Source: Alphaproteobacteria bacterium Ga0077535
GTDB taxonomy: Bacteria > Pseudomonadota > Alphaproteobacteria > Caulobacterales > Aquidulcibacteraceae
Length of the DNA: 64,000 bases
Reading direction: 5' to 3'
Assembly: GCA_001464425.1 (NCBI GenBank)
Contig: LNEK01000030.1
Coordinates: 62,001 to 126,000 of the forward strand
Part shown: positions 5,239 through 29,174 of the stretch, in pieces
Layout of the letters: each line of letters opens with the position of its first letter
Numbering within the stretch: position 1 is the first letter of the stretch
Translations under genes and position numbers: made by a program
Notes under the pieces: model-generated
Seen by the model: only the letters and a program-made list of their open reading frames with translations
Databases searched by the model: none
What the model was told of the DNA's origin: nothing

Positions 5239-5297
5239 GTCTGGGCTTCAGAGGCCATTCAGCTCACCGCCGGTAAGACGGCAGCACGGAGTTTCAC

Positions 5298-5504
5298 ATG
5301 CGCACGCAGGCACTGCTGCTTTCGAGCCTAGGCGCGGCCGTCGCCATCGCGGGCTGCATTCCGGTGCAGATCCAGGCGCCGGATGAGCCAATCGAGATCA
5401 ATCTCAACGTCAATATTCGCCAGGAAGTGATCGTGCGCCTCGAACGCGACGCCCAAGAACTCCTGGAAAACAATACCGACCTGTTCGGAGGCTCGACCCC
5501 ATGA
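5298..5504 (+). CDS. ynbE: YnbE-like outer-membrane lipoprotein
   Basis: 68 residues. A short signal peptide ends in a lipobox (AIAGC, Cys20), followed by a small domain containing IEINLNVNIRQEVIVRLERD. Family knowledge: YnbE monomers stack on the C-terminal end of YdbH by beta-strand augmentation and link the bridge to the outer membrane. The alternating hydrophobic strand INLNVNI fits such augmentation (inference). It lies 59 bases after ydbH and overlaps ydbL by 4 bases, so it is almost certainly cotranscribed and coupled to ydbL. Confidence 0.85.
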   Translation: MRTQALLLSSLGAAVAIAGCIPVQIQAPDEPIEINLNVNIRQEVIVRLERDAQELLENNTDLFGGSTP

Positions 5505-5887
5505 TCCGCGTACTTGCAGCAACTCTGTTGACCGCCGCCACCCTCGCGTTCGCTGCGCCAGCCATGGCGCAGGACGCCGCCCTCAACCAAGCGCGCGGCG
5601 CGGGCCTCATCGGCGAGCAAGCCGATGGCTATCTTGGCTTTGTGCCGGGCGCGAACATCTCCGCTGACCTGCGCGGGCGGGTTGAGCAGAACAACATCCA
5701 GCGACGGCAGCTGTACACACGGCGCGCAACCGAGCGCGGCGCATCCGTCAACGAGATGGCGGCGGCAGTGGCCTGCGAAGTGTTCGAGCGCCGTATCGCG
5801 GTGGGCGAGCGCTATCGCGACGCCAACGGTCAATGGCGCCAGCGCACGGCGTCCGCGCCGGTGGTGATCCCCGCCTTCTGTAGCTAA
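5501..5887 (+). CDS. ydbL: YdbL family protein (DUF1318), periplasmic
   Basis: 128 residues with a cleavable signal peptide (about 1-23, ending AMAQ-D). The body has the DUF1318 pattern: QARGAGLIGEQADGYLGFV, then an Asn/Arg-rich helix with RRQLYTRRATERG, and a terminal segment with CEVFERR and AFCS. YdbL is proposed to be a periplasmic chaperone that limits YnbE assembly on YdbH. It starts at ATG 5501 inside the end of ynbE (4-base overlap). The complete three-gene set supports a working bridge system. Confidence 0.87.
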   Translation: MIRVLAATLLTAATLAFAAPAMAQDAALNQARGAGLIGEQADGYLGFVPGANISADLRGRVEQNNIQRRQLYTRRATERGASVNEMAAAVACEVFERRIAVGERYRDANGQWRQRTASAPVVIPAFCS

Positions 5888-5964
5888 CGGAGAGCGGCAA
5901 GCGGCGTTGACGCGCGACCTTCTGGCCGCTGGCGGCGCACGCCGCCCCGCCCCATCTTGCACGT

Positions 5965-6195
5965 ATGAAAGCCTTCCTGCTCACGCTCACGCTGGGCGGC
6001 CTGCTCGCAGTCGTCACGTTCGGCACGCTGACCGGCTGGGACGGCTCGGCGATGAGCATCCATGGCTGGATCGCGTTAACCTTAGGCACGGTGCTCTCGC
6101 TCGCTGTCGGCGGCGGCTTGATGGCGCTGGTGTTTTACTCAGCCCGCAAGGGCTATGACGACCGCATCGAGATCGATACCTCGCACGACGACTGA
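5965..6195 (+). CDS. Small two-TM membrane protein, unknown function
   Basis: 76 residues. Two hydrophobic segments (about 3-24 and 32-58) are separated by a short loop (TGWDGSAMS). The C-terminus is charged (RKGYDDRIEIDTSHDD) and probably cytoplasmic. I do not recognise the family. It sits 77 bases after ydbL and 43 bases before nadE on the same strand, so it could belong to either transcription unit. Confidence 0.7.
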   Translation: MKAFLLTLTLGGLLAVVTFGTLTGWDGSAMSIHGWIALTLGTVLSLAVGGGLMALVFYSARKGYDDRIEIDTSHDD

Positions 6196-8280: not shown

Positions 8281-9087
8281 ATGCTAAAACTCGAAGATCT
8301 GATCTCGCTCGCGCTCGAAGCTGGGCGTGAAATTAATGCTGTGCGCGCGGCGGGGTTTGATGCGCAAACCAAACTCGATGGCTCCCTCGTCACCATCGCC
8401 GATCAGCGCGCCGAAGCAATCATAGAAGCGGGCTTACAGCGCCTTGCGCCGGGCGTACCGATGATCGGTGAGGAATCCTGCGCCGAAGGCCGCATCCCAG
8501 AATGCGGCGCGCGCTGGTTCTGCGTCGATCCACTCGACGGCACCAAAGGCTTCGCCGCCGGCGGCGATCAGTTCACGGTCAACATCGCGCTGATTGAAAA
8601 TGGTGCTCCCACGGTTGGTGTTGTGTACGCGCCAGCGACCGGTGAACTTTACGCAGCTGAGCCGGGCCGCGCGCTCGCCGGCCAGTGCGATCCCGCTACC
8701 GCCGTGCTCCGCGCGCCGCTGCATGCGATCCGCACTACCGAAAAGCCAGCACAATGGCGCATCATCGCATCGGAAAACTCCGGCCGCGACGCGCGTACTG
8801 CAGCGTTCGTGAGCACGCTCAATGGCGCCCCCGCGCACGCAAGCTCATCGATCAAGTTCTGCAAGGTCGCGGAAGGCGCAGCCGATCTTTATCCGCGCTT
8901 CGGTGAAGTGTGCGAGTGGGATGCCGCCGCGGGCCACGCCATTCTCACTGCAGCCGGCGGAAACATCATGCGCCTCGACGGCGCGCCGCTTACCTACGGT
9001 GATCGCGCCGGCAACTTCTTGGTGAAGGGCTTCATCGCCTATTCCAATGAAGCGGCGAAACAAGCGGCGCTCAGCGCGCTAGTTTAG
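8281..9087 (+). CDS. cysQ: 3'(2'),5'-bisphosphate nucleotidase CysQ (inositol monophosphatase family)
   Basis: 268 residues from ATG 8281; an upstream in-frame ATG at 8263 would add six residues, but 8281 has a GGGG-type site and the normal N-terminus (MLKLEDLISLALEAG). IMPase-fold metal motifs are present: GEES, DPLDGTKGF and, near the C-terminus, WDAAAGHAIL. CysQ hydrolyses PAP, the by-product left when sulfotransferases use PAPS. This fits the three sulfotransferase genes elsewhere in the window. The 3' end overlaps the convergent argE gene by 9 bases. Confidence 0.88.
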   Translation: MLKLEDLISLALEAGREINAVRAAGFDAQTKLDGSLVTIADQRAEAIIEAGLQRLAPGVPMIGEESCAEGRIPECGARWFCVDPLDGTKGFAAGGDQFTVNIALIENGAPTVGVVYAPATGELYAAEPGRALAGQCDPATAVLRAPLHAIRTTEKPAQWRIIASENSGRDARTAAFVSTLNGAPAHASSSIKFCKVAEGAADLYPRFGEVCEWDAAAGHAILTAAGGNIMRLDGAPLTYGDRAGNFLVKGFIAYSNEAAKQAALSALV

Positions 9088-10227
9088 GTGCGCGATCAGC
9101 CGGCGCATGAACGCAGCGCCTTCTTCGATCTGGCTTAGCTCGATCCACTCGTCCGGCTGATGCGCCTGCTCAATTGAGCCCGGCCCGCAAATCACCGCCG
9201 GCAATCCTGCACGCTGAAACAGCCCCGCCTCTGCGGCATAGGCCACCGCGCGCGTCTCATTATCGCCCGTCAGCGCACGGGCGAGCACTTCAGCTTCGCT
9301 GTTCTGCGAGATCGCCAGCCCCGGCGTCAGCGAGCGCCGCGTCACCTTCACACCGCCCTCGGGCGCGCGCGCTTTGATCTCCGCATCGAGCTTCGCCGCG
9401 GCCTCGCGAAAGCGTGCTTCGATCGCATCCCCCTGCGCTTGCTCGGGCGAGCGCAAGTCCCAGACGAACTCGCACCGCCGCGCCAGAATGTTCGCAGCGG
9501 TACCGCCCTCGACACGTCCAATCGTCAGCGTCGGCCCCGGCGGCGAGAAATGCGCATGGCTCATGCCGCGCCCTTCCTCCGCCATCTTAGCGACCAGCCC
9601 CATCAGCTTAAGCGCTTCCATCACGGCGGAGACGCCCGCATCCGGCAAACTTGAATGCGCCTCGCGCCCCGTTACTTCGACCAAGAACGAGCGAACTCCC
9701 TTATGCGCGGAAACAACCTTCATCAAAGTCGGCTCACCGACGATCACAGCCGCCGGCTTTTCAGGCAGCGCCGCAAGCTCTGCGATCATCGACGGCGCGC
9801 CGAGGCAGCCGATCTCTTCATCATAGGAGAACGCCAAGATCACTGGCCGCTTCATCGCCGCGGCTTGCATCTGATCCACGTGCGCGAGCGCCAGTGCGAT
9901 GAAGCTCTTCATGTCGGACGTGCCGCGCCCGTAGAGCTTGCCGCCGCGCTCGCTCAGCACCCACGGATCACTCGACCACGGTTGGCCATCGACCGGCACG
10001 ACATCAGTGTGCCCCGACAGCACCACGCCGCCAGCCACGTTCGGGCCAATCACCGCATAGAGGTTGGCCTTGCTTCCATCGGCATTTGCCACCCGCCGCG
10101 AAGCCACGCCGCGCGCACGTAGAAATTCCTCCACCCACTCAATGAGCGCGAGGTTCGAATTTCTGGACGTCGTATCGAAAGCGATCAGACGCGCGAGAAT
10201 ATCGAGCGTCTGATCGATCTTAGACAT
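9079..10227 (-). CDS. argE: Acetylornithine deacetylase (M20 family)
   Basis: 382 residues. This zinc-dependent M20 deacetylase converts N-acetylornithine to ornithine in arginine synthesis. Metal and catalytic motifs in order: SGHTDVVPVD (His, Asp), GRGTSDMK (bridging Asp), SYDEEIGCLG (catalytic and ligand Glu pair), VGEPT, and a C-terminal EQAHQPDEW (last His ligand). A dimerisation lid domain with KGVRSFLVEVTGREAHSS lies between. It is the last gene of a GST-FKBP-argE minus-strand operon, 5 bases after the FKBP gene. A related M20 deacylase activity cannot be excluded. Confidence 0.88.
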   Translation of the reverse strand: MSKIDQTLDILARLIAFDTTSRNSNLALIEWVEEFLRARGVASRRVANADGSKANLYAVIGPNVAGGVVLSGHTDVVPVDGQPWSSDPWVLSERGGKLYGRGTSDMKSFIALALAHVDQMQAAAMKRPVILAFSYDEEIGCLGAPSMIAELAALPEKPAAVIVGEPTLMKVVSAHKGVRSFLVEVTGREAHSSLPDAGVSAVMEALKLMGLVAKMAEEGRGMSHAHFSPPGPTLTIGRVEGGTAANILARRCEFVWDLRSPEQAQGDAIEARFREAAAKLDAEIKARAPEGGVKVTRRSLTPGLAISQNSEAEVLARALTGDNETRAVAYAAEAGLFQRAGLPAVICGPGSIEQAHQPDEWIELSQIEEGAAFMRRLIAHLN

Positions 10228-10232
10228 CCGCC

Positions 10233-10769
10233 TCAGCCCGGATCACCAACCGGCTCACCGCCCGGCTCTTGGAACGCCAGCAGCACAATGCGGAAACGAA
10301 GTGCTGCATTCGGCGGGATCGGGCCGCGGCCCGACGGGCCATAGCCCAGCGAACCCGGGAACGTCGCAATCACTTCATCGCCGGGACGCATGTGCGTGAT
10401 CGCTTCAGAGAAGCCGGGCACTACCGCCTGCAGCGGAAAATCCACCGGCTCACCGCGCGCGAAAGAAGAATCGAACACTTCGCCGCCGTCCACGAAGCTG
10501 CCTTCGTAGTGCACGAGCACAGTGGAGGCCATCGACGGCTGCGCCAATGTTTGATTTGCGCCGCGGCGTGTGAACTTCAATTCGAGGCCCGACGGCAAGG
10601 TTTGCGGCTGTTCGTCCACTTCGCTTCCAATCTCATTCAGTGCGTTGGTGATCGCATCGGCGCGCTCCGTATCGGCGCGTTCGATCTCGCGCTCCACGCC
10701 GCTTTTTTCATTGGTGTTGCAAGCGCCCAGCGAGAGCACGGCGACCGCAGCCAGGATCAATCTCTTCAT
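10233..10769 (-). CDS. FKBP-type peptidyl-prolyl isomerase, lipoprotein
   Basis: 178 residues. The signal peptide ends in a lipobox (LSLGAC, Cys17), a charged helical linker (about 22-55) follows, then an FKBP domain (about 75-170). FKBP features visible are VLVHYEGSFVDG, VFDSSFARGEPVDF, VVPGFSEA, FPGSLGYG and IPPNAALRFRIVLL. This is the short FkpA/Mip-like arrangement and should be a periplasmic folding catalyst tethered to a membrane. The start overlaps the GST stop by 4 bases (ATGA), implying translational coupling. Confidence 0.92.
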   Translation of the reverse strand: MKRLILAAVAVLSLGACNTNEKSGVEREIERADTERADAITNALNEIGSEVDEQPQTLPSGLELKFTRRGANQTLAQPSMASTVLVHYEGSFVDGGEVFDSSFARGEPVDFPLQAVVPGFSEAITHMRPGDEVIATFPGSLGYGPSGRGPIPPNAALRFRIVLLAFQEPGGEPVGDPG

Positions 10770-11437
10770 CGGTAAAGCGCTTCCGTTTGTTCAATGGTCC
10801 AAGGTTCAGCTTCCGCCGCGCGTTCCCACTCCTGGAACGCCGCGTCGGCAAAAATGGTGGCGCAGTACGCCTGCGCAAACTCGGGAGCCTCGACCGCATA
10901 TGTCCGCAGCCGTGTGGCGATTGGCGCGAACATGGCGTCGGCGATCGAGCGCTGACCGAACAGAAAGTCGCCCTCGTCGCCGAAGCGCGCGCGCAGGCCG
11001 CCCCAGAGTTCAAACAGGCGCGTCATATCCGTATGCGTATCCGCTGGCCATTGCGGCGCGCGTTCGAGCCTGCGCCGGATGTTGCACGACATATCGCGCC
11101 GGATCGCCGCAAAGCCCGCGTGCATCTCAGCCGATGCCGCGCGCGCTTCTGCTCGCACGATCGGATCAGCCGGCCACAGCGACGGCGTCTGCTCGGCCGC
11201 CCATTCGCAAATCGCGATGCTTTCGTGGATCACCGCATCGCCGACGTGCAGCGCCGGCACCCGCCCGCTTGGCGATACCGCGCGCACTTCCTTGATCTCG
11301 GAGCGGCCATAGCCTTCTCCGCCGAGCGGGATGATGTGTTCTTGAAAGCCGATGCCGCCCCATTTCAGCGCCAACCAAGGACGCATCGACCAGGACGAAT
11401 AATTCTTGTTGCCGATATGGAGGACGGGCGCGGCCAT
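10766..11437 (-). CDS. Glutathione S-transferase family protein
   Basis: 223 residues. The N-terminal thioredoxin-like half has the glutathione site: NYSSWSMRP (catalytic Ser/Tyr region), GRVPAL (cis-Pro) and HESIAICEW (ES motif). The C-terminal half is the all-helical GST domain. The NKNYSSWSMRPW start resembles a bacterial GST clade related to YfcF. It opens the minus-strand operon with the FKBP gene and argE. The substrate is unknown. Confidence 0.9.
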   Translation of the reverse strand: MAAPVLHIGNKNYSSWSMRPWLALKWGGIGFQEHIIPLGGEGYGRSEIKEVRAVSPSGRVPALHVGDAVIHESIAICEWAAEQTPSLWPADPIVRAEARAASAEMHAGFAAIRRDMSCNIRRRLERAPQWPADTHTDMTRLFELWGGLRARFGDEGDFLFGQRSIADAMFAPIATRLRTYAVEAPEFAQAYCATIFADAAFQEWERAAEAEPWTIEQTEALYR

Positions 11438-11542: not shown

Positions 11543-12748
11543 ATGCGCATTCTGGCGGCGATCGCGACAGTGGCGGCCTGCGTAACGGTGAGCTTTGCCG
11601 CAGCGCCCCAGGCGCCGGCGCGCTTTGATCCACGCGCCTATTTCCACCAGGTAGAGCCGCCAAAACCCACCGCGGGCGTTACCCCGGTCGGCAATGATTC
11701 CTGCGCCTTCGCGCGCAACAACGATTGCGACGAGCCAGCGATCGGCTCCGGCCTGTGCCCCGCCAACTCCGACAATACCGACTGCCAGCGCCTCCGCCGC
11801 GATATCGAGGACGATTCCTGCCAGTGGGCGAATGACGGCGAATGCGACGAGCTGCGCCTCGGCACCGGCGCCTGCATCCAAGCCACGGACGCTACCGATT
11901 GCGCCGCCATGAGCTGGTTGCGCAATCTAACCGACACCTGCGCCACCTCGTTCAATGACATCTGCGAAGAGCCAGGTATTGGCAACGGCGCCTGCGCCGC
12001 ACGAACGGATCGCTCCGATTGCCACACGCGCGAGCGTCCAATGGGCATTATCGATCATTTCTACGGCCGCGATGATCGTGTCCGTGTCGATGCAGGCGAA
12101 GCTCCCTGGCGCTTCATGGGCCGCTTCGTCAGCGCCGCCGGCCAGCGCTGCACCGCGACGCTCATCGCCAGCAACGTCATCGCCACAGCCGCGCATTGCA
12201 TCGTTAGCGACAATGGCGTTCACGCCGCCGGCGTCTTCACACCATCAGGCAACGGCCAGAGCGCCCGCGCCACCGCCTATTTAATTAGCCCTGCTTTCAA
12301 CTTCTATCGCTTCGCCACGACCAGCGAGCTCGACGGCCACGATTGGGCGCTCCTGCGGCTCGATCGCCCGCTCGGCGATACGCTTGGCCACGCCGAAGTG
12401 CGTCGCTTCACGACACGAGAGCGCTCAGCGCCGCGCGGCGTGAACTTGCTCCAGGCCGGCTATTCCTGGGACACGGGCGGCGACTTGCTCTCGGCCCACA
12501 TCGATTGCCATCCAATTCAGATCTACGATGACGCCACCTTCGCACATGCCTGCGACACCACTTTGGGCGATTCAGGCTCGGCTTTCCTGATCCGAGACGG
12601 CCGGCGCTTTCAACTTGTCGGGGTCGACTCGAAATACCGCCCATCGCCAGGCGCGACGCCGAAATCGATCGGCGTCAGCGCCGCCGCATTTGACCGCTCC
12701 GTCGCGGATTTCGCCGCCGGCCGGACCGGGCTCCCCGCCACGCGCTAG
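11543..12748 (+). CDS. Secreted trypsin-like serine protease with three Cys-rich repeats
   Basis: 401 residues with an N-terminal signal peptide (about 1-21). Three repeats follow at residues 54-81, 93-120 and 133-160, each with exactly the spacing C-x7-C-x9-C-x8-C and an Asp/Asn-rich filling (DDSC...DGECDE...GTGAC...ATDC). The C-terminal S1 protease domain has an intact triad: H218 (TAAHC), D267 (HDWALLRL) and S344 (GDSGSAF). The repeats look like small disulfide-bonded, possibly Ca-binding modules; their role is unknown. The gene is divergent from the GST operon and followed 21 bases later by an acyltransferase gene. Confidence 0.88.
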   Translation: MRILAAIATVAACVTVSFAAAPQAPARFDPRAYFHQVEPPKPTAGVTPVGNDSCAFARNNDCDEPAIGSGLCPANSDNTDCQRLRRDIEDDSCQWANDGECDELRLGTGACIQATDATDCAAMSWLRNLTDTCATSFNDICEEPGIGNGACAARTDRSDCHTRERPMGIIDHFYGRDDRVRVDAGEAPWRFMGRFVSAAGQRCTATLIASNVIATAAHCIVSDNGVHAAGVFTPSGNGQSARATAYLISPAFNFYRFATTSELDGHDWALLRLDRPLGDTLGHAEVRRFTTRERSAPRGVNLLQAGYSWDTGGDLLSAHIDCHPIQIYDDATFAHACDTTLGDSGSAFLIRDGRRFQLVGVDSKYRPSPGATPKSIGVSAAAFDRSVADFAAGRTGLPATR

Positions 12749-18329: not shown

Positions 18330-18363
18330 AAAAGCCGGCGTCAGAGTGCGACGCCGGCCTTTT
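18330..18363 (-). terminator. Intrinsic terminator overlapping the sulfotransferase stop
   Basis: On the minus strand a GCCGGCGTC/GACGCCGGC stem (9 bp, extended by A/T pairs with one bulge) is followed by TTTT. It overlaps the last codons of the gene at 18341-19684 and ends transcription toward the alcohol dehydrogenase gene. Confidence 0.7.
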
Positions 18364-19684
18364 CCAACACGCGCCGCGCCGGATCGAGCAGCGCGCCATA
18401 TTTTTCCCAGCGCCCCACCGCCGTATTGTACATCGGCGCCCGCACCTGCGCCGCACTGGGGGTGCCGACGCCAGCGGCGTTGCGGTGAAACGCCAGCACA
18501 CCGTCATTCCAGACGAGACCACAGAATGCGGTAAGCTTGCGGCTCATCTCTTCCTGCGCCGCCACCAATTCCTCGTACTGAACGACCATGAAGCGCTCAG
18601 CCGGCAGCACGCTCTGCCAATGCCGCACCACGCGATCAAACTGAACGTACTTATGCGCCGCTGTCTCCAGATCGTAGACGTAATCGTAGTAGCGATCGTC
18701 CAGCGGGAAGAGCTGCTTGTAATTCGAGAGCACGCTATCGAGCGGATGCCGGCGCACGACGATGACGCGCGCATTCGGCAGCGCGCGCAGGATAGACGCG
18801 GCGAGCAGATAATTGCTTGGCGCCTTATCGATAAAGCGCGTCGTCGACCCCGAGAGCGGGCGCGTGCTTTCGATATAGAGCTTACCCAAGCGCGCGTAAT
18901 CTACAGCGTCAGCGCGCGCAAACGTATCGGGGTCAAGCGTCGGCCGCGTCGCGGAGCCAGAGAGCTTCTTGTTCAGCAACGCAAAATTGCCGATCTCCCC
19001 AAGCGACTTCACATCCGCATGGCTGGATAGAATGCGATCCACCAAGGTTGTGCCCGAACGCGGCAGGCCCGACACAAAGATCGGCTCTTCGTTTGAAAAG
19101 CCGCCACCCGGCGCATACGCGACTTTCATCGCCCCTTGCGCGAGCTCTTCTTCCAAGGCGCGATTATAAGGGCTCACCGCTTTGCGCTTTTGCTTGCCGC
19201 GCGTCAGCCACGCGATCGACGCTTTAACGTCGCCGAGATCTTCGTACGTCTTCGCCAACGCATGCCCGAGATGCGCCGTGCGCCAGCCATCTTCATCCGG
19301 CCCAGCGAATTGCGCTTCCATCAGCGCGATCTGATTGCGCTCCGGCGTCTGCTTCTGCAGCCGCACCAAAGCCTCGCGCGCCTTAAAATAGTCCGGCGCG
19401 GCGCCAACCGCCTGCTCATAAGCTTTGATCGCCTGCTCAAACTTGCCGGAATATTCCTGCGCCAAGCCAAGCTCGAAGAGGATCGCCGCCTGACCGGGCT
19501 GCAGCACATTGGTGCGCGCAAACGCTTGCGCCGCGGCCGCGTAGTCACCGAGCAATCTGTACGCCACGCCAGCGCCGAACAGCGCGCGCGGATCGTTCGG
19601 GCTTTCCGCTTTGGCGCGATCCGCCAGCGCGCGCATAGCGCCAAAGCGCTGAACGATTTGCGCGAGCTCGTTTTCGTTGATCAT
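18341..19684 (-). CDS. TPR-repeat sulfotransferase
   Basis: 447 residues. The N-terminal third is helical TPR-like repeats (about 20-125; motif ALFGAGVAYRLLGDYAAAAQ). The C-terminal domain is a PAPS-dependent sulfotransferase: the 5'-phosphosulfate loop PIFVSGLPRSGTTLVDRIL near residue 200 and the 3'-phosphate motif VVRRHPLDSVLSNYKQLF near 305. No signal peptide, so it is cytosolic. The acceptor is unknown; related TPR-sulfotransferases are common in Caulobacterales and sphingomonads. It is preceded 10 bases upstream by a small zinc-ribbon-like gene on the same strand. Confidence 0.9.
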   Translation of the reverse strand: MINENELAQIVQRFGAMRALADRAKAESPNDPRALFGAGVAYRLLGDYAAAAQAFARTNVLQPGQAAILFELGLAQEYSGKFEQAIKAYEQAVGAAPDYFKAREALVRLQKQTPERNQIALMEAQFAGPDEDGWRTAHLGHALAKTYEDLGDVKASIAWLTRGKQKRKAVSPYNRALEEELAQGAMKVAYAPGGGFSNEEPIFVSGLPRSGTTLVDRILSSHADVKSLGEIGNFALLNKKLSGSATRPTLDPDTFARADAVDYARLGKLYIESTRPLSGSTTRFIDKAPSNYLLAASILRALPNARVIVVRRHPLDSVLSNYKQLFPLDDRYYDYVYDLETAAHKYVQFDRVVRHWQSVLPAERFMVVQYEELVAAQEEMSRKLTAFCGLVWNDGVLAFHRNAAGVGTPSAAQVRAPMYNTAVGRWEKYGALLDPARRVLEKAGVAL

Positions 19685-22226: not shown

Positions 22227-22697
22227 TTACCAGCGGTAGTGTGAGAACGCGCGGTTGGCTTCGGCCATCCGGTGCGTGTCTTCGCGCTTCTTCACCGCGT
22301 TGCCGCGGTTGTTGGCGGCGTCTTGGATTTCACCAGCCAGACGCTCTTGCATCGTGTTTTCGTTGCGCGCGCGGGCGGCGCCCACGAGCCAACGGATCGC
22401 CAGCGCCTGGCGGCGCTCCGGGCGAACTTCAACCGGCACCTGGTAGGTGGCGCCGCCGACGCGGCGTGAGCGCACTTCGATGGCCGGCGCGACGTTCTGC
22501 AACGCATCATGGAACGCTTCGATCGACGGGCGCTTCAGCTTCTGCTCGACGGTCTCGAGCGCGCCATAGACGATCTGCTCGGCAGCGGACTTCTTACCTT
22601 CGTACATGACGTAGTTCATGAACTTCGTCAGAACGAGATCACCATAAACGGGATCGGGCAGAACTTGACGCGGCTCGGCGCGGTGACGGCGGGACAT
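22227..22697 (-). CDS. rpsG: 30S ribosomal protein S7
   Basis: 156 residues, standard length. The N-terminus [16 protein letters not shown] and later [29 protein letters not shown] and RWLVGAAR are diagnostic S7 segments that bind the 3' major domain of 16S rRNA. It starts 12 bases after the rpsL stop. In E. coli S7 is the feedback repressor of this operon; whether that holds here is not shown by the sequence. Confidence 0.98.
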
Positions 22698-22709
22698 CTC
22701 TTCTCTTCC

Positions 22710-23081
22710 TTACTTCGGTCGTTTCGCGCCATAGAGCGAGCGGCGCTTGCGGCGATCCTTGACGCCTTGCGTATCGAGCACACCGCGCAGGATGTGATAG
22801 CGAACGCCCGGCAAATCCTTCACGCGGCCGCCGCGAATGAGCACAACCGAGTGCTCCTGCAGATTGTGGCCTTCGCCCGGGATGTAGCACACGGCTTCGA
22901 TGCCGGTGGTGAGGCGCACCTTGGCGACCTTCCGAAGCGCCGAGTTCGGCTTCTTCGGCGTCGTCGTATAGACGCGGGTGCAAACGCCCCGGCGTTGCGG
23001 CGACGCCTTCAGCGCCGGCGACTTATTGCGGTTCGCTAGCGGCTTCCGCGGCTTGCGGATCAGCTGGTTGATCGTCGGCAT
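22710..23081 (-). CDS. rpsL: 30S ribosomal protein S12
   Basis: 123 residues from ATG 23079-23081; the open frame extends further upstream but [13 protein letters not shown] is the universal S12 start and has GAGG just before it. S12 sits in the decoding centre. The streptomycin-relevant segments [12 protein letters not shown] and [10 protein letters not shown] are wild-type, with both key lysines intact in what I can read, so no streptomycin-resistance substitution is evident. First gene of the str operon. Confidence 0.98.
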
Positions 23082-23116
23082 TCGCCTCTTCCGTTCCGTT
23101 CGTTCAAACTCAAACA

Positions 23117-23160
23117 GCGCGCCAAGCGGTCCTTGCGGGATCCGCGTTTGGCGCGCCAAA
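23117..23160 (-). promoter_or_regulatory. Structured 5' leader of rpsL with nested repeats
   Basis: The leader holds a perfect 14-base palindrome TTTGGCGCGCCAAA (23147-23160) and a second copy of GCGCGCCAA (23117-23125). In the minus-strand RNA the second TTGGCGCGC can pair either within the palindrome or with the downstream copy (9 bp stem, 22-base loop that itself contains GCGG-ATC-CCGC). Two exclusive folds are therefore possible 35-80 bases before the S12 start. A regulatory role is inferred. Confidence 0.45.
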
Positions 23161-23222
23161 TTCATGGCCAATCGGCGGGGCGGCGCTTTGAGCTGGCCGC
23201 AGCCGTTCCGAATGAGGGCGGA

Positions 23223-23251
23223 CAAATACGAGCGCGAGCCCCCAAGGTCAA
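23223..23251 (-). promoter_or_regulatory. Housekeeping (sigma-70 type) promoter of the str operon
   Basis: On the minus strand TTGACC (23246-23251) and TATTTG (23223-23228) are separated by exactly 17 bases. This is close to the consensus and gives a leader of roughly 135 bases before rpsL. No better promoter is seen in the 217-base gap. Confidence 0.7.
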
Positions 23252-23298
23252 GCCAGGGCGATGCGGCAAGGAGGCCTGTTTTCGCCCCTCCGCGTGAT

Positions 23299-24204
23299 CT
23301 AACCCGTCGGATTCCGGGGATCGAGCGGCAACCCCTCGGCCTGGCGGCGCTTGAGGAGCCGCAACCACCCGTGCAGGGCCTCGCAATCCAGCCCGTGCAT
23401 CATCAGCCGAAAGCCCGCCTGCATGGTCGAAAGCGGGACCAAGGGGTGGCCGTTTTTGATGAAAGAGAGGTGGTAGTCGGTTCCCAGGATCTTGCCGATA
23501 TAGATCGCCACCGGCTCATCCAGCTGCAGCGAGTTCGAGGCCCGAATGAAATCCGACCGGGGCAGCATCAGCGCATAAAGAGGCGTGTAGACCTCAACCG
23601 CCGTCTGCACGTCGACGAAATTGAGCCAGCCCTTCTTGGTCGGCGGAATATCGAACGGGCCGTCGGTGATCATCGAGAAATCCGGCCGCTCGATCGGCAT
23701 CAGGTCTCGCCCCTGATCGCGCAGGCTCTTGTTCAACTGGATGATGAAATTGAACACGTTGAGATCGTGCTGGAGGAAAACGTTGTCCTCCAAATCCTTC
23801 AACGTCCGCGGCCTGAGCGGCACCGTCTCGACGCTCACCGGCCCAGCATTGGCTTTGATAAACGCCAGCAGTTCAGTGCCGACATGGAAGTGGCGGCGAA
23901 TGAGCAAATTCGCATCGGGTGAGCCGAACGTGCGCAGGCCCCAATGAATGGTCTTATGCAATAGACCGTTCAAATTGGGATGATGCGGAGAAATCCCGCG
24001 CACCAATTTCACCAGCAGAAAGAACGTAAACACGAACGGCCGGATGATGTTGAACATCCAGCGCCGCGACCACGAAGCCGAGCCGCGCAACAGCGCGCCC
24101 TTCGCATCCGGGTCGATCGGCAAACTCTGATCCAGCGCCAGCGCCAGCCACGGATCGGGATCGCGCGGATCGTAATTGCTGGTGCTGAGATCGGCGAGCG
24201 TCAC
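23299..24204 (-). CDS. DUF6999-like protein, third gene of KAS III/oxidase cassette
   Basis: 301 residues, GTG start overlapping the previous stop (GTGA). No enzyme motif is recognisable. A hydrophobic segment lies near residues 52-68 ([18 protein letters not shown]). The rest is well-ordered globular sequence with His-rich stretches ([25 protein letters not shown]) that could bind a metal or lipid. From memory it matches the uncharacterised family DUF6999. The strict coupling to a KAS III and a haem-oxygenase-fold oxidase suggests a shared fatty-acyl product; that is inference. Confidence 0.7.
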
Positions 24205-24863
24205 TGCAGGATTTCCTCGATCTGCAACGCATAGAGCCGCGCCGTCACCTCAGCCGTGCGCACGATACGTTTCGCCGCCGCCTCATCCGGCAACACCATC
24301 GCCAACATCGATTTGAACTCTTCAATGTGCTCCACATCGTTTTCGCCGTGATAGAGCAGAAACCGCACCGCCTCGTCCGGCAGCGCCAGCGTCTCCTTTA
24401 CGCGCCGCCCCCATTCCTGCGCTTTGATCGAGCCCAAGCCTTCTATGATCCACATCGCGCCCAAAAGCCCAAACGGATTAGCTTGCGACGCCTGGTGATA
24501 CATCCACGCCGAAAGCGCTTCCGAGCCAATATTTTTCTCACCGCTTTGGATCACCGAAAGCTCGCCGCCGCTCGCCACGTAATCAGCTTCGAGCAAACGA
24601 AAATCGCGATGCTCCGTCACCGCGTGCCGCATCAGCAACGAACGCAATTCCAAATGCTGATCATCAATGTTCGACGCCGCGCGCGACATCCACAGCGCGC
24701 CCTCTTTCACCTGCTGACGCAGCTGCACCAGAAACGCGTGATAGTCCGCCAGCTCAAACCGCCCGCGCGTCAGCTTGCGGATCAGCGGCGTCTGCTCCAG
24801 CCGCCCCTCAAACTCGGTGAACACGATCGTGAGTTTGCGCAGCGTGTCAGCGACGTCGCTCAT
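24201..24863 (-). CDS. Haem-oxygenase-fold iron-containing oxidase (HDO-like)
   Basis: 220 residues from ATG 24863 (4-base overlap with the KAS III stop); an upstream in-frame extension would lie inside the KAS III gene. The all-helical sequence fits the TenA/PqqC/CADD superfamily. Candidate di-iron ligands are E141 (WIIEGLG) and H172-x3-D176-x2-H179 (HGENDVEH), the same spacing as H174/D178/H181 of Chlamydia CADD as I recall it. E54 and the E84-H85 pair are further candidates, though the E/H pair of CADD is not matched exactly. Relatives such as UndA (fatty acid to terminal alkene) and SznF are O2-dependent di-iron enzymes. The substrate here may be the KAS III product. Confidence 0.75.
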   Translation of the reverse strand: MSDVADTLRKLTIVFTEFEGRLEQTPLIRKLTRGRFELADYHAFLVQLRQQVKEGALWMSRAASNIDDQHLELRSLLMRHAVTEHRDFRLLEADYVASGGELSVIQSGEKNIGSEALSAWMYHQASQANPFGLLGAMWIIEGLGSIKAQEWGRRVKETLALPDEAVRFLLYHGENDVEHIEEFKSMLAMVLPDEAAAKRIVRTAEVTARLYALQIEEILQ

Positions 24864-25990
24864 ACCGCCTCCAGCATCATGAAACCCACCAGCGCGCGCC
24901 CGCTCTCGGGCACCACGCACAAAATCTTCTGCCCCGGTTTCACCTGCCCGCTGCGCATCAGCCGATCCAGCATCAGCCAGATCGACGCCGAGCCAACGTT
25001 GCCGACTTCACGCAGCACCGAGAACCACTTCTCTTGCGGGATCATGCCGGCCGTATCCTCAAGCAGCGACACGATCTCCGCGCGCAGCGACTTTGCCGAG
25101 TAATGCACCAGGCAGTGATCAACATCCGCCGGCACGATGCGGCCCTGATCCACCTTCTCCAGATAGACGCCAACCCACGCCCGGATCACGCGCTTCAGCA
25201 ACTCAAAATCCTGCAGCAACGCGATCGCGCCGGCTTCATGCGCCGCGCGCGGGCCAGCTTTCGCCCAGAACGCCAACGGATCGGTGCGATCCTCCACGGT
25301 CGCGCCCGCCCACATGCACGGATCGTAGCGATCGGCGAGCGAGATGATGTCAATGAAGTTGATCTTCAGCGCGCCGGGCCGCGGCTTGGCTTCGATCACC
25401 ACACCGCCGGCGCCATCGGAGAGCGTAAAGCGCAGGAAGTCCGCCTCGGCGCGGATGCGGCCCTTGGCGTCCACGAGCGCCGTGCCCTCATAAAAGCTCG
25501 GCCGAAACCAGCGCGACGAGAACTCGCCCGCACAGGCCGCCGTCACATCGTGTTCGCCGGCGCGCACATTGAGCCACGCCGCCTTCGCCGCCATCAGCGA
25601 CGAGCCGCACACCGACTGGAAGCTCGCAATCTCCATCGGCCCGCCGCCGAGTTCCGCATGCACCTGCGCTGCGTGCCCCGGCGCGAGCAAATCGCCCTGC
25701 GTCGTCGCCGCCGCCAGCATGCCGAGATCGCGCGGCGCTAGCCCCGCCCGCTCCAAAGCGGCGCCCACCGCCAGCGCGCACATTTGCGCGTTCGAGTGTG
25801 AGACGCTCCCATCCGGCGCCATCGCATAGTGCCGGCTCTCGACGCCATTCCAGCGCAGCGCCTTCTTACCGAAAAGGCTGTCGCGCCCAGCGACGCGGCC
25901 GAGATGCTCTTCCATCTGGTCGTTGCTGACCGGCGCGCCCGGCAAGAACGCCCCCGTGCCCGTGATGTAGCCGTCTCGAAGCTCGCTCAT
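24860..25990 (-). CDS. 3-oxoacyl-ACP synthase III-like condensing enzyme
   Basis: 376 residues from ATG 25990 (an in-frame TTG lies 9 bases upstream). It is a thiolase-fold KAS III with intact Cys-His-Asn triad: C128 (FQSVCGSS), H296 (CLVHYSAKS) and N331 (VGNVGSAS). It is longer than housekeeping FabH (about 317 residues), and the His and Asn motifs differ from the usual FabH forms, so it is probably a specialised condensing or acyl-transfer enzyme. First gene of a three-gene cassette with the oxidase and the DUF6999-like gene, each joined by 4-base overlaps. Confidence 0.85.
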   Translation of the reverse strand: MSELRDGYITGTGAFLPGAPVSNDQMEEHLGRVAGRDSLFGKKALRWNGVESRHYAMAPDGSVSHSNAQMCALAVGAALERAGLAPRDLGMLAAATTQGDLLAPGHAAQVHAELGGGPMEIASFQSVCGSSLMAAKAAWLNVRAGEHDVTAACAGEFSSRWFRPSFYEGTALVDAKGRIRAEADFLRFTLSDGAGGVVIEAKPRPGALKINFIDIISLADRYDPCMWAGATVEDRTDPLAFWAKAGPRAAHEAGAIALLQDFELLKRVIRAWVGVYLEKVDQGRIVPADVDHCLVHYSAKSLRAEIVSLLEDTAGMIPQEKWFSVLREVGNVGSASIWLMLDRLMRSGQVKPGQKILCVVPESGRALVGFMMLEAV

Positions 25991-26072
25991 GCGGCGCAAC
26001 CCTACATCAGGCCGTGGCGCAAACTAGGCCGCCGCGTGGCGGACGGGGCCAACAAGCGCCATCCGCCACCCC

Positions 26073-26107
26073 AAAAAGAAAGCGGCGGGACCGTGAGGAC
26101 CCGCCGC
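26073..26107 (-). terminator. Intrinsic terminator of the TonB receptor gene
   Basis: Minus-strand hairpin GCGGCGGG/CCCGCCGC (8 bp, 10-base loop) followed by TTTCTTTTT, 35 bases after the receptor's stop codon. Confidence 0.8.
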
Positions 26108-26141
26108 CATAGTCTTTAGTCTTTGCGTTTCCGCGTAACGA

Positions 26142-29100
26142 CTAGAACCGATAACGGCCCGAGATCGCCAGCGTACGGCCCAGAACACGGTAGTTTTGCA
26201 CGTCCGTGTTGGCTTGACCGAAGAGGCCGTCCGCAGTTTGCGGCGGATAATCGTCGAGCAGGTTGTCGACGTTGGCCGTGAGCGTGAAGTTGTCCGTCAT
26301 CGCCCAACGCGCCGAAACGTCGATGTAGCTGCTTTCCGGGTTAAACGTATTCGCCCAGTTGAAGCTGTACGTCTCAGGCGAGTACGACCAGCGCGCGAAC
26401 AGCGTCCAGTCACCAACGCTATAGGTGGCCGAGAGCACCGACTTGAAGTCCGGCAGAGCGCCACCGATGCCGGCGGACGAACCACCCGCGAACTCGTTAC
26501 CGTTGATCTGGTAGGAGTCGAGGATCGAGTACAGTTCGTTGATGGTCAGTTGGCCCGGGCCGAGCGGCAGCGACCATTCAAGCTGAATGTCGACGCCTTC
26601 CGACGAGAGCGAACCTTGGTTGCCCAAGCTGGTGTTGACGAAGTCGATCTGACCCGTGCCGGTGTTACGAACGACGTTGGCGCAAGAGGCCAAGTTGCCG
26701 TTGACGTAGCAGTCGTTGATGAAGAACTGCGCACCAAACGCCGCGATCACGTCCGTGATCTCGATGTTGTAGTAATCGACCGAAGCGCGCAGATCGCCAA
26801 CCGGGAACCAATCCGGCGTGAACACCACACCATAGGTCAACGATTCGGCGGTTTCCGGCGCCAGGTTCGGGTTACCGAACGCGAAGGCTTGCACCTGCGA
26901 GTTGTTGGCTACGAAGCCCGGGTAGTTGCCCAACGGCACGCCTTGGCCAACGCAGAACGCTTGCGTGACGCCAGTGACGTCCGGCGCACCGTTCGAGTTC
27001 GCGTCGCGGCAAGGATCGGTAAAGGACGGGAAGCCTTGGTCACCCGATTGGAACAGTTCGATGACGCTCGGCGCACGAGTCGCTTCGTTCTGCATGACGC
27101 GGAAACGGAGCCACTCGACCGGCGCCCACTCGCCGCCGATCTTGTACGCGTCGATGTTGCCAACGGACGAGTAGTTCGAACGACGATAGCCGGCCTCGAT
27201 GCCGAGGTAGTGAGCGAACGGCGCTTCGCTGACGAGCGGGACCGCAACTTCCGTGTACAATTCGTACACGTCAACCGAGCCTTCGGCGTCTTGAATGGCG
27301 TTGAAGCCGTAGATGTTGCCGGTGCGCTGTTGGTCGTCAACGAACTTACCAGCGTACGAGTCACGATATTCGAAACCGAACACCGCGGCGATCGGACCAG
27401 CCGGAAGCTCGAACAGGTCGCCACGAACATAGCCGGTGACCCGGTTTTCTTCGATGGTGTTGTTCTCGAACGTGGTGACGCGCAGGAATGACGCTTGTGC
27501 GTCGCTGAGCGAGTTCTCACCGAAGATGTCCAGCGTTTGGCAGTTCGGCAACGCAGCCGTGCCAAGGTTGGTGCTGACGTCATCGATCGTGCCCAGGATC
27601 GTATCCGGGCCAGCCGACAGAGCTTGGCAACCCGACAGACCTTGGTTGAAGGCCGTGCGGTTCACTGAGTTGATGGCGCGGTTGTTGAAGTTCACCTGGC
27701 CGTACGAAGCAGCGAGGTTCCAATCCCAGTTCTCGCCCAACGAGCCTTCGAGGCTGGCGAGGAAGAACATGGCATTGTTCTCGTAATACCCGTTACGGGT
27801 GCCGACCTCGCTCGTGCGGCGGTTAGCCGTGAACGGAGCGTACGGCGTCGGACGCGACATCAGCGCAGCCCAGAGATCCGGGTGATCTGCTTGGATCATG
27901 TTGCGCATGTTGTCGGTCAGACGAACCGTCAGGCCAGTTGCCGGCGTCGGCGCGAGCTGAACTTCAGTGCGGCTGTTGGTGTAGTTGATCAAGATGTTCA
28001 GGCGAACATCGTTCTCGAAGTCGTAGTGACCCGTGGTCGTCAGCGCGAGGCGTTCAGCCGGAATGATCAGGAAGTTGTCCGGCGCGAAATTATAGCGCGC
28101 AGAGCCCTGAAGCCCCTGGTTCCGCAGCGGGATCGCGCAGAGACCACCGCCGTTAGACGGCATCAAATTGCCGTTCACGTCGAACGTCAAGCTGCCGCCG
28201 TTGACAGCAGCCCCACCGACGCCGTCGCAATTGGTATCGGTGAAACCGGCGCTGAAGTTGGAGTTGCCAACGAGCGGCTGGTTGACCGAAAGGTTCGTGA
28301 ACGGGTTACCGGCGTTGTTAACAACCGTCCCGTAAGGGTTGGTGCCGGAACCACCCGAGTTGGCAAGAATACCTGAGTGCGTGGCGCGAGCAGCAGCGCT
28401 ATCGCAGATCGAGTAGGTGTAGCCGCCGCCCGCAACCGGGTCATAGCAGATCGCGCCAGAAGTGCGCGAATAGTCATACTCGCTTTGCAGGACGCTTGCG
28501 CGGTCGTAGTACGAAGCATAGGCCGTCAGGTTGCCGCGGCCGTTGGCGAAGTTGCCGCCGACGAGGCCGTTGATTTCGAATTCGGCGGCGTTGCCGGTTT
28601 CGAGTTCCTGGCCGAACGTCATCGTGACTTCGGCGCCTTCATAGTCGTCCTTCAGCACGAAGTTGACGACGCCCGCCATAGCGTCCGAACCGTACACGGC
28701 GGATGCACCGCCGGTGACGACTTCGATACGCGAAATCAGCGAGGCCGGGATCGTGTTCAAATCGACAACGCCCGTGGTGGACGAGGCCGGAACGCGTTCG
28801 CCGTTGATCAGAACCAGCGTGCGTTGCGGGCCGAGGCCGCGAAGGTCGACGGTGGCGAAATCTTCGCCGCCCGCGTTGTTCGACGTACGGGTGTTGCCCG
28901 GAACGATCTGCGGGAGTTCGTTCAGGAGCGAGTCCGTGGTCAGCGTCGCCGTCAGTTCGAGCTGCTCAGAACCGACCGTCGTGACCGGGCTGATGGCTTC
29001 GAAATCTTGGCGCGCGAGACGCGTGCCGGTAACAACAATCGCGTCTTCGCTATCATCTTCAGCATCCTGCGCGTACGCTGGCGTGCCGGTCAGCGCGGCG

Positions 29101-29174
29101 GCCGCAGCTGCGAGCACCGAGGCGCCCGTCAGCAGAGACTTACGCTGTCCATTCTGCGTCTTTTTATTCGACAT
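26142..29174 (-). CDS. TonB-dependent outer-membrane receptor
   Basis: 1010 residues. Signal peptide about 1-35 (ending AYA-Q), TonB-box-like region EDAIVVTGTR (about 43-52), plug domain about 55-175 with LRGLGPQRTLVLINGERV and GGASAVYGSDAMAGVVNFVLK, then a large beta-barrel ending in the typical aromatic residue (ISGRYRF). This is the long Caulobacterales/sphingomonad-type receptor. No transporter, regulator or hydrolase gene is adjacent, so the ligand cannot be guessed. AGGGGG eight bases before ATG is a strong ribosome-binding site. Confidence 0.95.
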   Translation of the reverse strand: MSNKKTQNGQRKSLLTGASVLAAAAAALTGTPAYAQDAEDDSEDAIVVTGTRLARQDFEAISPVTTVGSEQLELTATLTTDSLLNELPQIVPGNTRTSNNAGGEDFATVDLRGLGPQRTLVLINGERVPASSTTGVVDLNTIPASLISRIEVVTGGASAVYGSDAMAGVVNFVLKDDYEGAEVTMTFGQELETGNAAEFEINGLVGGNFANGRGNLTAYASYYDRASVLQSEYDYSRTSGAICYDPVAGGGYTYSICDSAAARATHSGILANSGGSGTNPYGTVVNNAGNPFTNLSVNQPLVGNSNFSAGFTDTNCDGVGGAAVNGGSLTFDVNGNLMPSNGGGLCAIPLRNQGLQGSARYNFAPDNFLIIPAERLALTTTGHYDFENDVRLNILINYTNSRTEVQLAPTPATGLTVRLTDNMRNMIQADHPDLWAALMSRPTPYAPFTANRRTSEVGTRNGYYENNAMFFLASLEGSLGENWDWNLAASYGQVNFNNRAINSVNRTAFNQGLSGCQALSAGPDTILGTIDDVSTNLGTAALPNCQTLDIFGENSLSDAQASFLRVTTFENNTIEENRVTGYVRGDLFELPAGPIAAVFGFEYRDSYAGKFVDDQQRTGNIYGFNAIQDAEGSVDVYELYTEVAVPLVSEAPFAHYLGIEAGYRRSNYSSVGNIDAYKIGGEWAPVEWLRFRVMQNEATRAPSVIELFQSGDQGFPSFTDPCRDANSNGAPDVTGVTQAFCVGQGVPLGNYPGFVANNSQVQAFAFGNPNLAPETAESLTYGVVFTPDWFPVGDLRASVDYYNIEITDVIAAFGAQFFINDCYVNGNLASCANVVRNTGTGQIDFVNTSLGNQGSLSSEGVDIQLEWSLPLGPGQLTINELYSILDSYQINGNEFAGGSSAGIGGALPDFKSVLSATYSVGDWTLFARWSYSPETYSFNWANTFNPESSYIDVSARWAMTDNFTLTANVDNLLDDYPPQTADGLFGQANTDVQNYRVLGRTLAISGRYRF

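Follow-up and report, generated by a model that had tools for sequence, protein, structure and literature searches.

The window analyzed here is a 64,000-nucleotide stretch from Alphaproteobacteria bacterium Ga0077535 (contig LNEK01000030.1, positions 62,001 to 126,000 of the forward strand), which contains three adjoining minus-strand genes for a beta-ketosynthase related to StlD and DarB, a heme-oxygenase-like di-metal oxidase (HDO) and a protein of the family DUF6999. Genome comparisons support a functional link between the three genes, and we tentatively favor the hypothesis that the trio represents a dedicated biosynthetic module, in which the ketosynthase would join two acyl chains and the HDO would oxidize the product with O2. 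The genes follow one another with no intergenic gap and are coupled by ATGA and GTGA overlaps, as correctly located in a preliminary description of the window that was made from the sequence without database searches. The features are as follows, those with residue numbers being placed by alignment.

24860 to 25990, minus strand: gene 1 (read from 25990 to 24860), StlD/DarB-type beta-ketosynthase of the KAS III superfamily, 376 amino acids, ATG start
25607 to 25609, minus strand: codon of catalytic Cys128, from alignment with StlD
25103 to 25105, minus strand: codon of catalytic His296, from alignment with StlD
24998 to 25000, minus strand: codon of catalytic Asn331, from alignment with StlD
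24860 to 24863, minus strand: ATGA overlap of gene 1 stop and gene 2 start
24201 to 24863, minus strand: gene 2 (read from 24863 to 24201), HDO, PF14518, 220 amino acids, ATG start
24603 to 24626, minus strand: helix-1 metal-type segment H80-x3-E84-x2-D87, with Asp at the canonical His position and an extra invariant His80
24441 to 24443, minus strand: codon of Glu141, putative helix-2 ligand
24327 to 24350, minus strand: putative helix-3 ligands H172-x3-D176-x2-H179
24201 to 24204, minus strand: GTGA overlap of gene 2 stop and gene 3 start
23299 to 24204, minus strand: gene 3 (read from 24204 to 23299), DUF6999 (PF22523), 301 amino acids, GTG start

A scan with protein 3, using one genome per species, yielded 52 loci that by their titles come mostly from Caulobacterales or unclassified Alphaproteobacteria, together with one record labelled Bordetella and one from Archangium violaceum. 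The co-occurrence check that had been set beforehand in the preliminary description gave a clear answer: the trio stands in order in all 52 loci (truncated within the ketosynthase at a contig end in five), which excludes a chance association, the linkage being tested in one direction only in this DUF6999-seeded set. In Caulobacter vibrioides, DUF6999 was found in the control genome and all three genes in a seeded locus (L013).

Two independent samples, with 398 genomes at the level of the phylum and 299 at the level of the order, point the same way. DUF6999 was identified in 9 genomes of the phylum sample, and the identical nine carry an HDO scoring at least 313 bits, the next best HDO score, among 77 further genomes, being 98.8 bits. 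Likewise, the 25 genomes with DUF6999 in the order sample are identical to the 25 with an HDO of at least 298 bits, and the HDOs of 20 others are distant ones that score at most 90 bits. Combined, the samples hold 33 distinct genomes with DUF6999 (G000 occurs in both), and in all of them DUF6999 and the HDO are neighbors on the same strand, HDO first, with 20 to 651 bases between the matches. The ketosynthase profile was run on 80 chosen genomes and scored at least 473 bits in 33/33 with DUF6999 versus 0/47 without it, the latter drawn from several hundred DUF6999-negative genomes. The ketosynthase lies at most 250 bp from the HDO in 32 of the 33; the exception is G433, where an ATPase-like open frame, as read from its translation, is inserted between the two (L135, 1566 to 2819). 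Furthermore, the distances of the three families correlate with each other (r 0.96, 0.88 and 0.86). Together with the gene fusions described below, these patterns support the functional linkage that had been suggested earlier, and more strongly than was apparent from the sequence of the window.

The first protein had been described as a KAS III condensing enzyme with an intact Cys128-His296-Asn331 triad. The triad is indeed present and invariant in all 66 rows of the ketosynthase alignment (five short rows were dropped), and the three residues align with the catalytic triad of StlD, the best match of protein 1 in the Protein Data Bank (PDB; 5gk0, E 1e-62); in the StlD entry 5gk2, the residue aligned to His296 is Ala. 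The protein is a StlD/DarB relative rather than a generic KAS III enzyme, as judged from a nearly full-length match to the NCBIfam StlD/DarB model NF005293 (318.9 bits, E 4.6e-95) and from 271.6 bits with the DarB model versus 56 bits with fabH. A role for gene 1 as the housekeeping FabH was considered and rejected; two FabH matches above the cut-off are present elsewhere in the genome of the window, and in the ketosynthase tree, with supports computed as unrooted splits, these two proteins are split from all StlD/DarB-type rows with a support of 100. By these comparisons, DarB-type enzymes are nearer to protein 1 than FabH is, and the trio ketosynthases belong within the StlD/DarB-type family, their exact placement being unsettled. 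In L007/G645, the ketosynthase match reaches no further than residue 338 of 376 (331 of 369 model positions), and the C-terminus may be altered there.

The kinship with StlD and DarB points to a two-chain, ring-forming condensation and not to UndA-like alkene formation. In the module that we propose, the ketosynthase would condense a pair of activated acyl chains, of which one is most likely a beta-ketoacyl and the other an enoyl thioester, into a two-tailed ring or beta-keto compound such as a 4-carboxy-2,5-dialkylcyclohexane-1,3-dione, by analogy with the DarB reaction outlined in part of PMC5515871. The HDO, adjoining or fused to the ketosynthase, would then oxidize this product by means of O2 and a di-metal site. 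In the simplest case, this would be an oxidative decarboxylation with loss of the carboxyl group and a neighboring hydrogen, formally the reaction of UndA on fatty acids (described in part of PMC13108848); the proposal is one of chemical analogy. The HDO would in that case take over the job of the flavoprotein DarA, the formation of the resorcinol, and make DarA unnecessary.

Protein 2 scores 41.7 bits with PF14518 (“Iron-containing redox enzyme”, cut-off 28.9); its nearest solved chain is 3dde (8e-7), followed by weak matches to CADD and a 4-aminobenzoate synthase. The statements about metal ligands rest on alignments, with counts from 71 rows that leave out the record labelled Bordetella (L041), taken to be a mis-binned Brevundimonas contig, and the duplicates L109 to L111. 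Eight residues are invariant in 71/71 rows (H80, E84, D87, E115, E141, H172, D176 and H179), so that E141 and the H172-x3-D176-x2-H179 motif, both recognized in the preliminary description, are fully conserved and every row contains the helix-2 Glu and the helix-3 pattern H-x3-D/E-x2-H. The earlier interpretation as an HDO-like di-iron oxidase holds for this conserved, metal-type ligand set, but the first helix departs from the canonical pattern. A second HDO clade (L112 to L115) has E-x2-H in helix 1, the Glu and His of which align with E84 and D87 of the trio HDO; at position 80, the second clade has Tyr and the trio His. In a profile alignment, 3dde carries both histidines. In the trio alignments, the helix-1 His of E-x2-H is replaced by an invariant Asp87 with an invariant His80 upstream of E84, which is a new arrangement. 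His80 and/or Asp87 may be metal ligands, and His80 might stand in for the missing helix-1 His. Part of a review of the HDOs (PMC13108848) gives the ligand sets as mostly 3H/3C, with 3H/4C in an estimated quarter and a mononuclear variant in addition. Movement of ligands has a precedent in these enzymes, since AetD already departs in ligand order, according to part of PMC10654658.

The HDOs of the second clade have surroundings of their own. In L112, a fusion protein combines the HDO with an AMP-binding (acyl-activating) enzyme identified with Pfam, and in L113 it shares one open frame with an apparent AMP-binding enzyme. In L114 and L115, it lies beside an AMP-binding-like gene and an SDR-like gene, which like the enzyme in L113 were recognized from reading the translations.

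Fusions between the ketosynthase and the HDO provide a further indication of a shared task. The two are in one open frame in 10 of the 22 loci tested (L063 to L068, L099 to L101 and the Archangium locus L052), the remaining 12, of which three repeat earlier loci, being unfused; L052 is the sole fusion in the set of 52 seeded loci. The fused frames encode 626 to 655 amino acids, and 936 in L099, where a single frame (8512 to 11322, minus strand) appears to span a desaturase, the ketosynthase and the HDO and could be either a triple fusion or an assembly effect. Trees of the ketosynthase, of the HDO and of the concatenated sequences each unite the nine non-Archangium fusions with a support of 100, and none of four trees joins these nine with Archangium, which makes two or more fusion or fission events likely.

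Genes for lipid-modifying enzymes were found around the fusions. A fatty-acid hydroxylase (PF04116 or a tblastn relative) lies upstream in six loci of the nine-member group and a fatty-acid desaturase (PF00487 or a relative) does so in seven, and in Archangium a hydroxylase directly follows DUF6999; these enzymes may act on the chains in other lineages. Neither was found in L100 and L101, where a predicted metal-dependent hydrolase (PF10118) is located upstream of the fusion (11575 to 12447 and 5292 to 6164, respectively), at the place of the hydroxylase or desaturase in the relatives. An acyl-derived product, as suggested in the preliminary description, fits with the membrane fatty-acid hydroxylase and desaturase genes in the operons of these distant relatives, but the alkene of the UndA type that had been mentioned is not favored by the StlD/DarB kinship. 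Another neighbor, the conserved small membrane-type protein M188, adjoins the trio in all eight members of one group (L070, L102 to L107 and L116), without a Pfam match in those members run through Pfam. It had no match in the fetched flanks of the 51 non-Archangium seeded loci, and no relative was found in the genome of the window by a search that had no positive control and shows little. An unfused trio occurs in Pseudoalteromonas sp. THAF3, where the genes carry the annotations beta-ketoacyl-ACP synthase III, iron-containing redox enzyme family protein and hypothetical protein, and where an M188 relative precedes them.

The hydroxylase and desaturase neighbors could suggest that the product of the ketosynthase is instead a linear, possibly branched, beta-ketoacyl compound, which the HDO cleaves or desaturates into an alkene, a ketone or an oxidized lipid. 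UndA, which turns fatty acids into 1-alkenes (in part of PMC13108848), is itself an HDO. We consider this a possible but not a probable explanation, given that the ketosynthase scores far higher with the StlD/DarB models than with fabH and groups with the DarB-type enzymes, opposite the FabH pair of its own genome across the fully supported split.

Seven loci of related ketosynthases outside the trio were compared with it. Lower-scoring members of the same broad family were identified in G582 and G070 and as second copies in G441 and G379, the latter two genomes holding both kinds at different loci. Further ones are encoded on plasmids of Streptomyces, Prevotella and Bacteroides; four of nine matching plasmid records were examined, one of them being the Pseudoalteromonas trio. 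A flavoprotein gene that we take to be DarA-like, from its presumably flavodoxin-like N-terminus, lies beside the ketosynthase in five of the seven non-trio loci (L117, L136, L138, L139 and L140; tblastn, with DarA-like pieces). The DarA label rests also on the dar gene list in part of PMC3949708. For the 74 trio loci (locus lengths 3.2 to 17 kb, nine below 9 kb), tblastn found no DarA-like gene within the flanks that were fetched. As far as these flanks reach, a DarA-like flavoprotein is found beside most of the related non-trio ketosynthases and is absent from the trio, a contrast that is new. In the ketosynthase tree, three DarA-linked enzymes and the two from Bacteroidota group together with a support of 97. 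In L136, from the genus of the window (G582), both genes of the darB/darA-like cluster are split between frames as read.

A bolder hypothesis is that the trio represents a non-flavin route to lipids of the dialkylresorcinol or cyclohexanedione type, in which the place of the aromatase DarA has been taken by an O2-dependent HDO that has a relocated helix-1 set (His80/Glu84/Asp87) and is joined to the ketosynthase, with DUF6999 as a partner of new function. We regard this as unlikely in its full form, and the two of seven non-trio loci that have no DarA-like gene make it slightly less likely still. These are L118 from Prevotella and L119 from Bacteroides, which have neither a DarA-like nor an HDO match, so that neither partner is an obligatory neighbor of the ketosynthases of this family. 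Like these two loci, several other observations weigh against the two-chain module that we favor. Protein 1 is under the curated cut-off of NF005293 (318.9 versus 450 bits), and the condensation may therefore differ. The split that separates the trio and Streptomyces from the other DarB-type enzymes has a support of only 55, and the trio ketosynthases alone were not recovered as a group. The search for DarA covered the fetched flanks, not whole genomes. The helix-1 ligands of the trio HDO differ from those of the E-x2-H clade, with the Glu retained as E84 and Asp87 at the His position, and UndA is not among the PDB sequence matches of protein 2. Finally, the nine-member fused group was not recovered in the DUF6999 tree, and the hydroxylase and desaturase queries had no match in the fetched flanks of the 51 non-Archangium seeded loci.

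The third protein had been called DUF6999-like, which named the family correctly but understated the relationship: it is DUF6999 itself, with a full-length match to PF22523 (382.5 bits, cut-off 27). No solved relative was found in a PDB search, nor any other convincing relative of the family in Pfam, PHROG or PDB. A profile comparison of DUF6999 with the HDO gave a probability of 0.2 out of 100 and hence no sign of kinship, and the idea of a degenerate HDO was rejected on this test. The family is patchily distributed in three distant families of genomes (2/100, 4/97 and 9/118, one of the nine being a 37-position fragment). Fourteen polar residues are invariant across 71 rows, and there is one hydrophobic stretch at about residues 50 to 68 with a moderate mean hydropathy of 1.83, features that are compatible with an enzyme at the membrane. 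The membrane association suspected in the preliminary description, which taken as a whole is partly supported, may be correct, on the strength of this single moderately hydrophobic segment. In our proposal, DUF6999 accompanies the two enzymes throughout, may be bound to the membrane, and would bind the lipid-like product, present it or convert it further.

The invariant polar residues would also suit a catalytic role in which DUF6999 joins a head group to an acyl chain, the ketosynthase serving as an acyltransferase or other non-decarboxylating partner and the HDO oxidizing a head group derived from an amino acid or amine. This seems quite improbable to us, and no recurring amino-acid-handling gene was seen beside the trio in the loci compared, with Pfam covering only part of the neighbors. 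It is very improbable that the HDO is protective or regulatory and that the ketosynthase feeds membrane lipid remodeling under stress, as the precedent, the HDO DtpC of Acinetobacter, which is reported to be protective, is linked to KatE and shares an operon with katE (part of PMC13232832, in the main text of which no words starting with ketoacyl or DUF occur). For the trio HDO, a substrate in common with the ketosynthase is suggested by their unvarying linkage and by the fusions.

In the window, a TonB-receptor-like gene, as read from its translation, is located upstream of the trio (26142 to 29174, minus strand). The genes downstream on the same strand are presumably those for the ribosomal proteins S12 and S7 and elongation factor G. 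Near the ribosomal-protein genes, a frame at 18341 to 19684 (minus strand) appears from its translation to encode a protein with TPR repeats and a sulfotransferase domain. No sigma-70-like promoter was found in 22600 to 26300, and terminator-like sites in this region are as frequent as in shuffled sequences (3 versus 3.3), both of which are weak indications.

If the HDO does replace DarA, the trio would represent an unexpected di-metal solution to an aromatization or decarboxylation step. With the arrangement of Asp87 and His80, another ligand variant would be known in a superfamily in which sequence is a poor guide to reactivity, and the natural fusions offer a ready construct for enzymology. 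Furthermore, DUF6999 and a hitherto uncharacterized HDO clade gain a pathway context that can be tested in the model organism Caulobacter vibrioides.

In a word search of the open-licence literature, the word DUF6999 was not found, nor was the pair of a ketosynthase and an HDO among the matches listed. As judged from sequence comparisons, the parts are of known kinds, the third being a member of a DUF family, and it is their combination, with fusion, altered ligands and a constant DUF partner, that did not appear among the matches listed in this search. The trio resembles the DarAB and StlD systems in that its ketosynthase belongs to the same family by model and PDB match and has the same catalytic triad, but it differs in the presence of an HDO and DUF6999 and in having no DarA-like gene within the flanks of the 74 loci, and its ketosynthase falls below the family cut-off. 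In the genomes searched, the HDOs of the second clade are some of the nearest after those of the trio, but they keep E-x2-H, and neither a ketosynthase nor a DUF6999 match was found in those four loci. With the HDO superfamily as a whole, including UndA, CADD, SznF and AetD, protein 2 shares the PF14518 match, the helix-2 Glu and the helix-3 H-x3-D-x2-H, its nearest solved chains being 3dde and, weakly, CADD, whereas Asp87 in place of the second clade's His, the invariant His80 and the fusion or coupling to a ketosynthase set it apart. Protein 3 matches DUF6999 (PF22523) over its full length, and the context of the trio ties this family to the ketosynthase-HDO pair.
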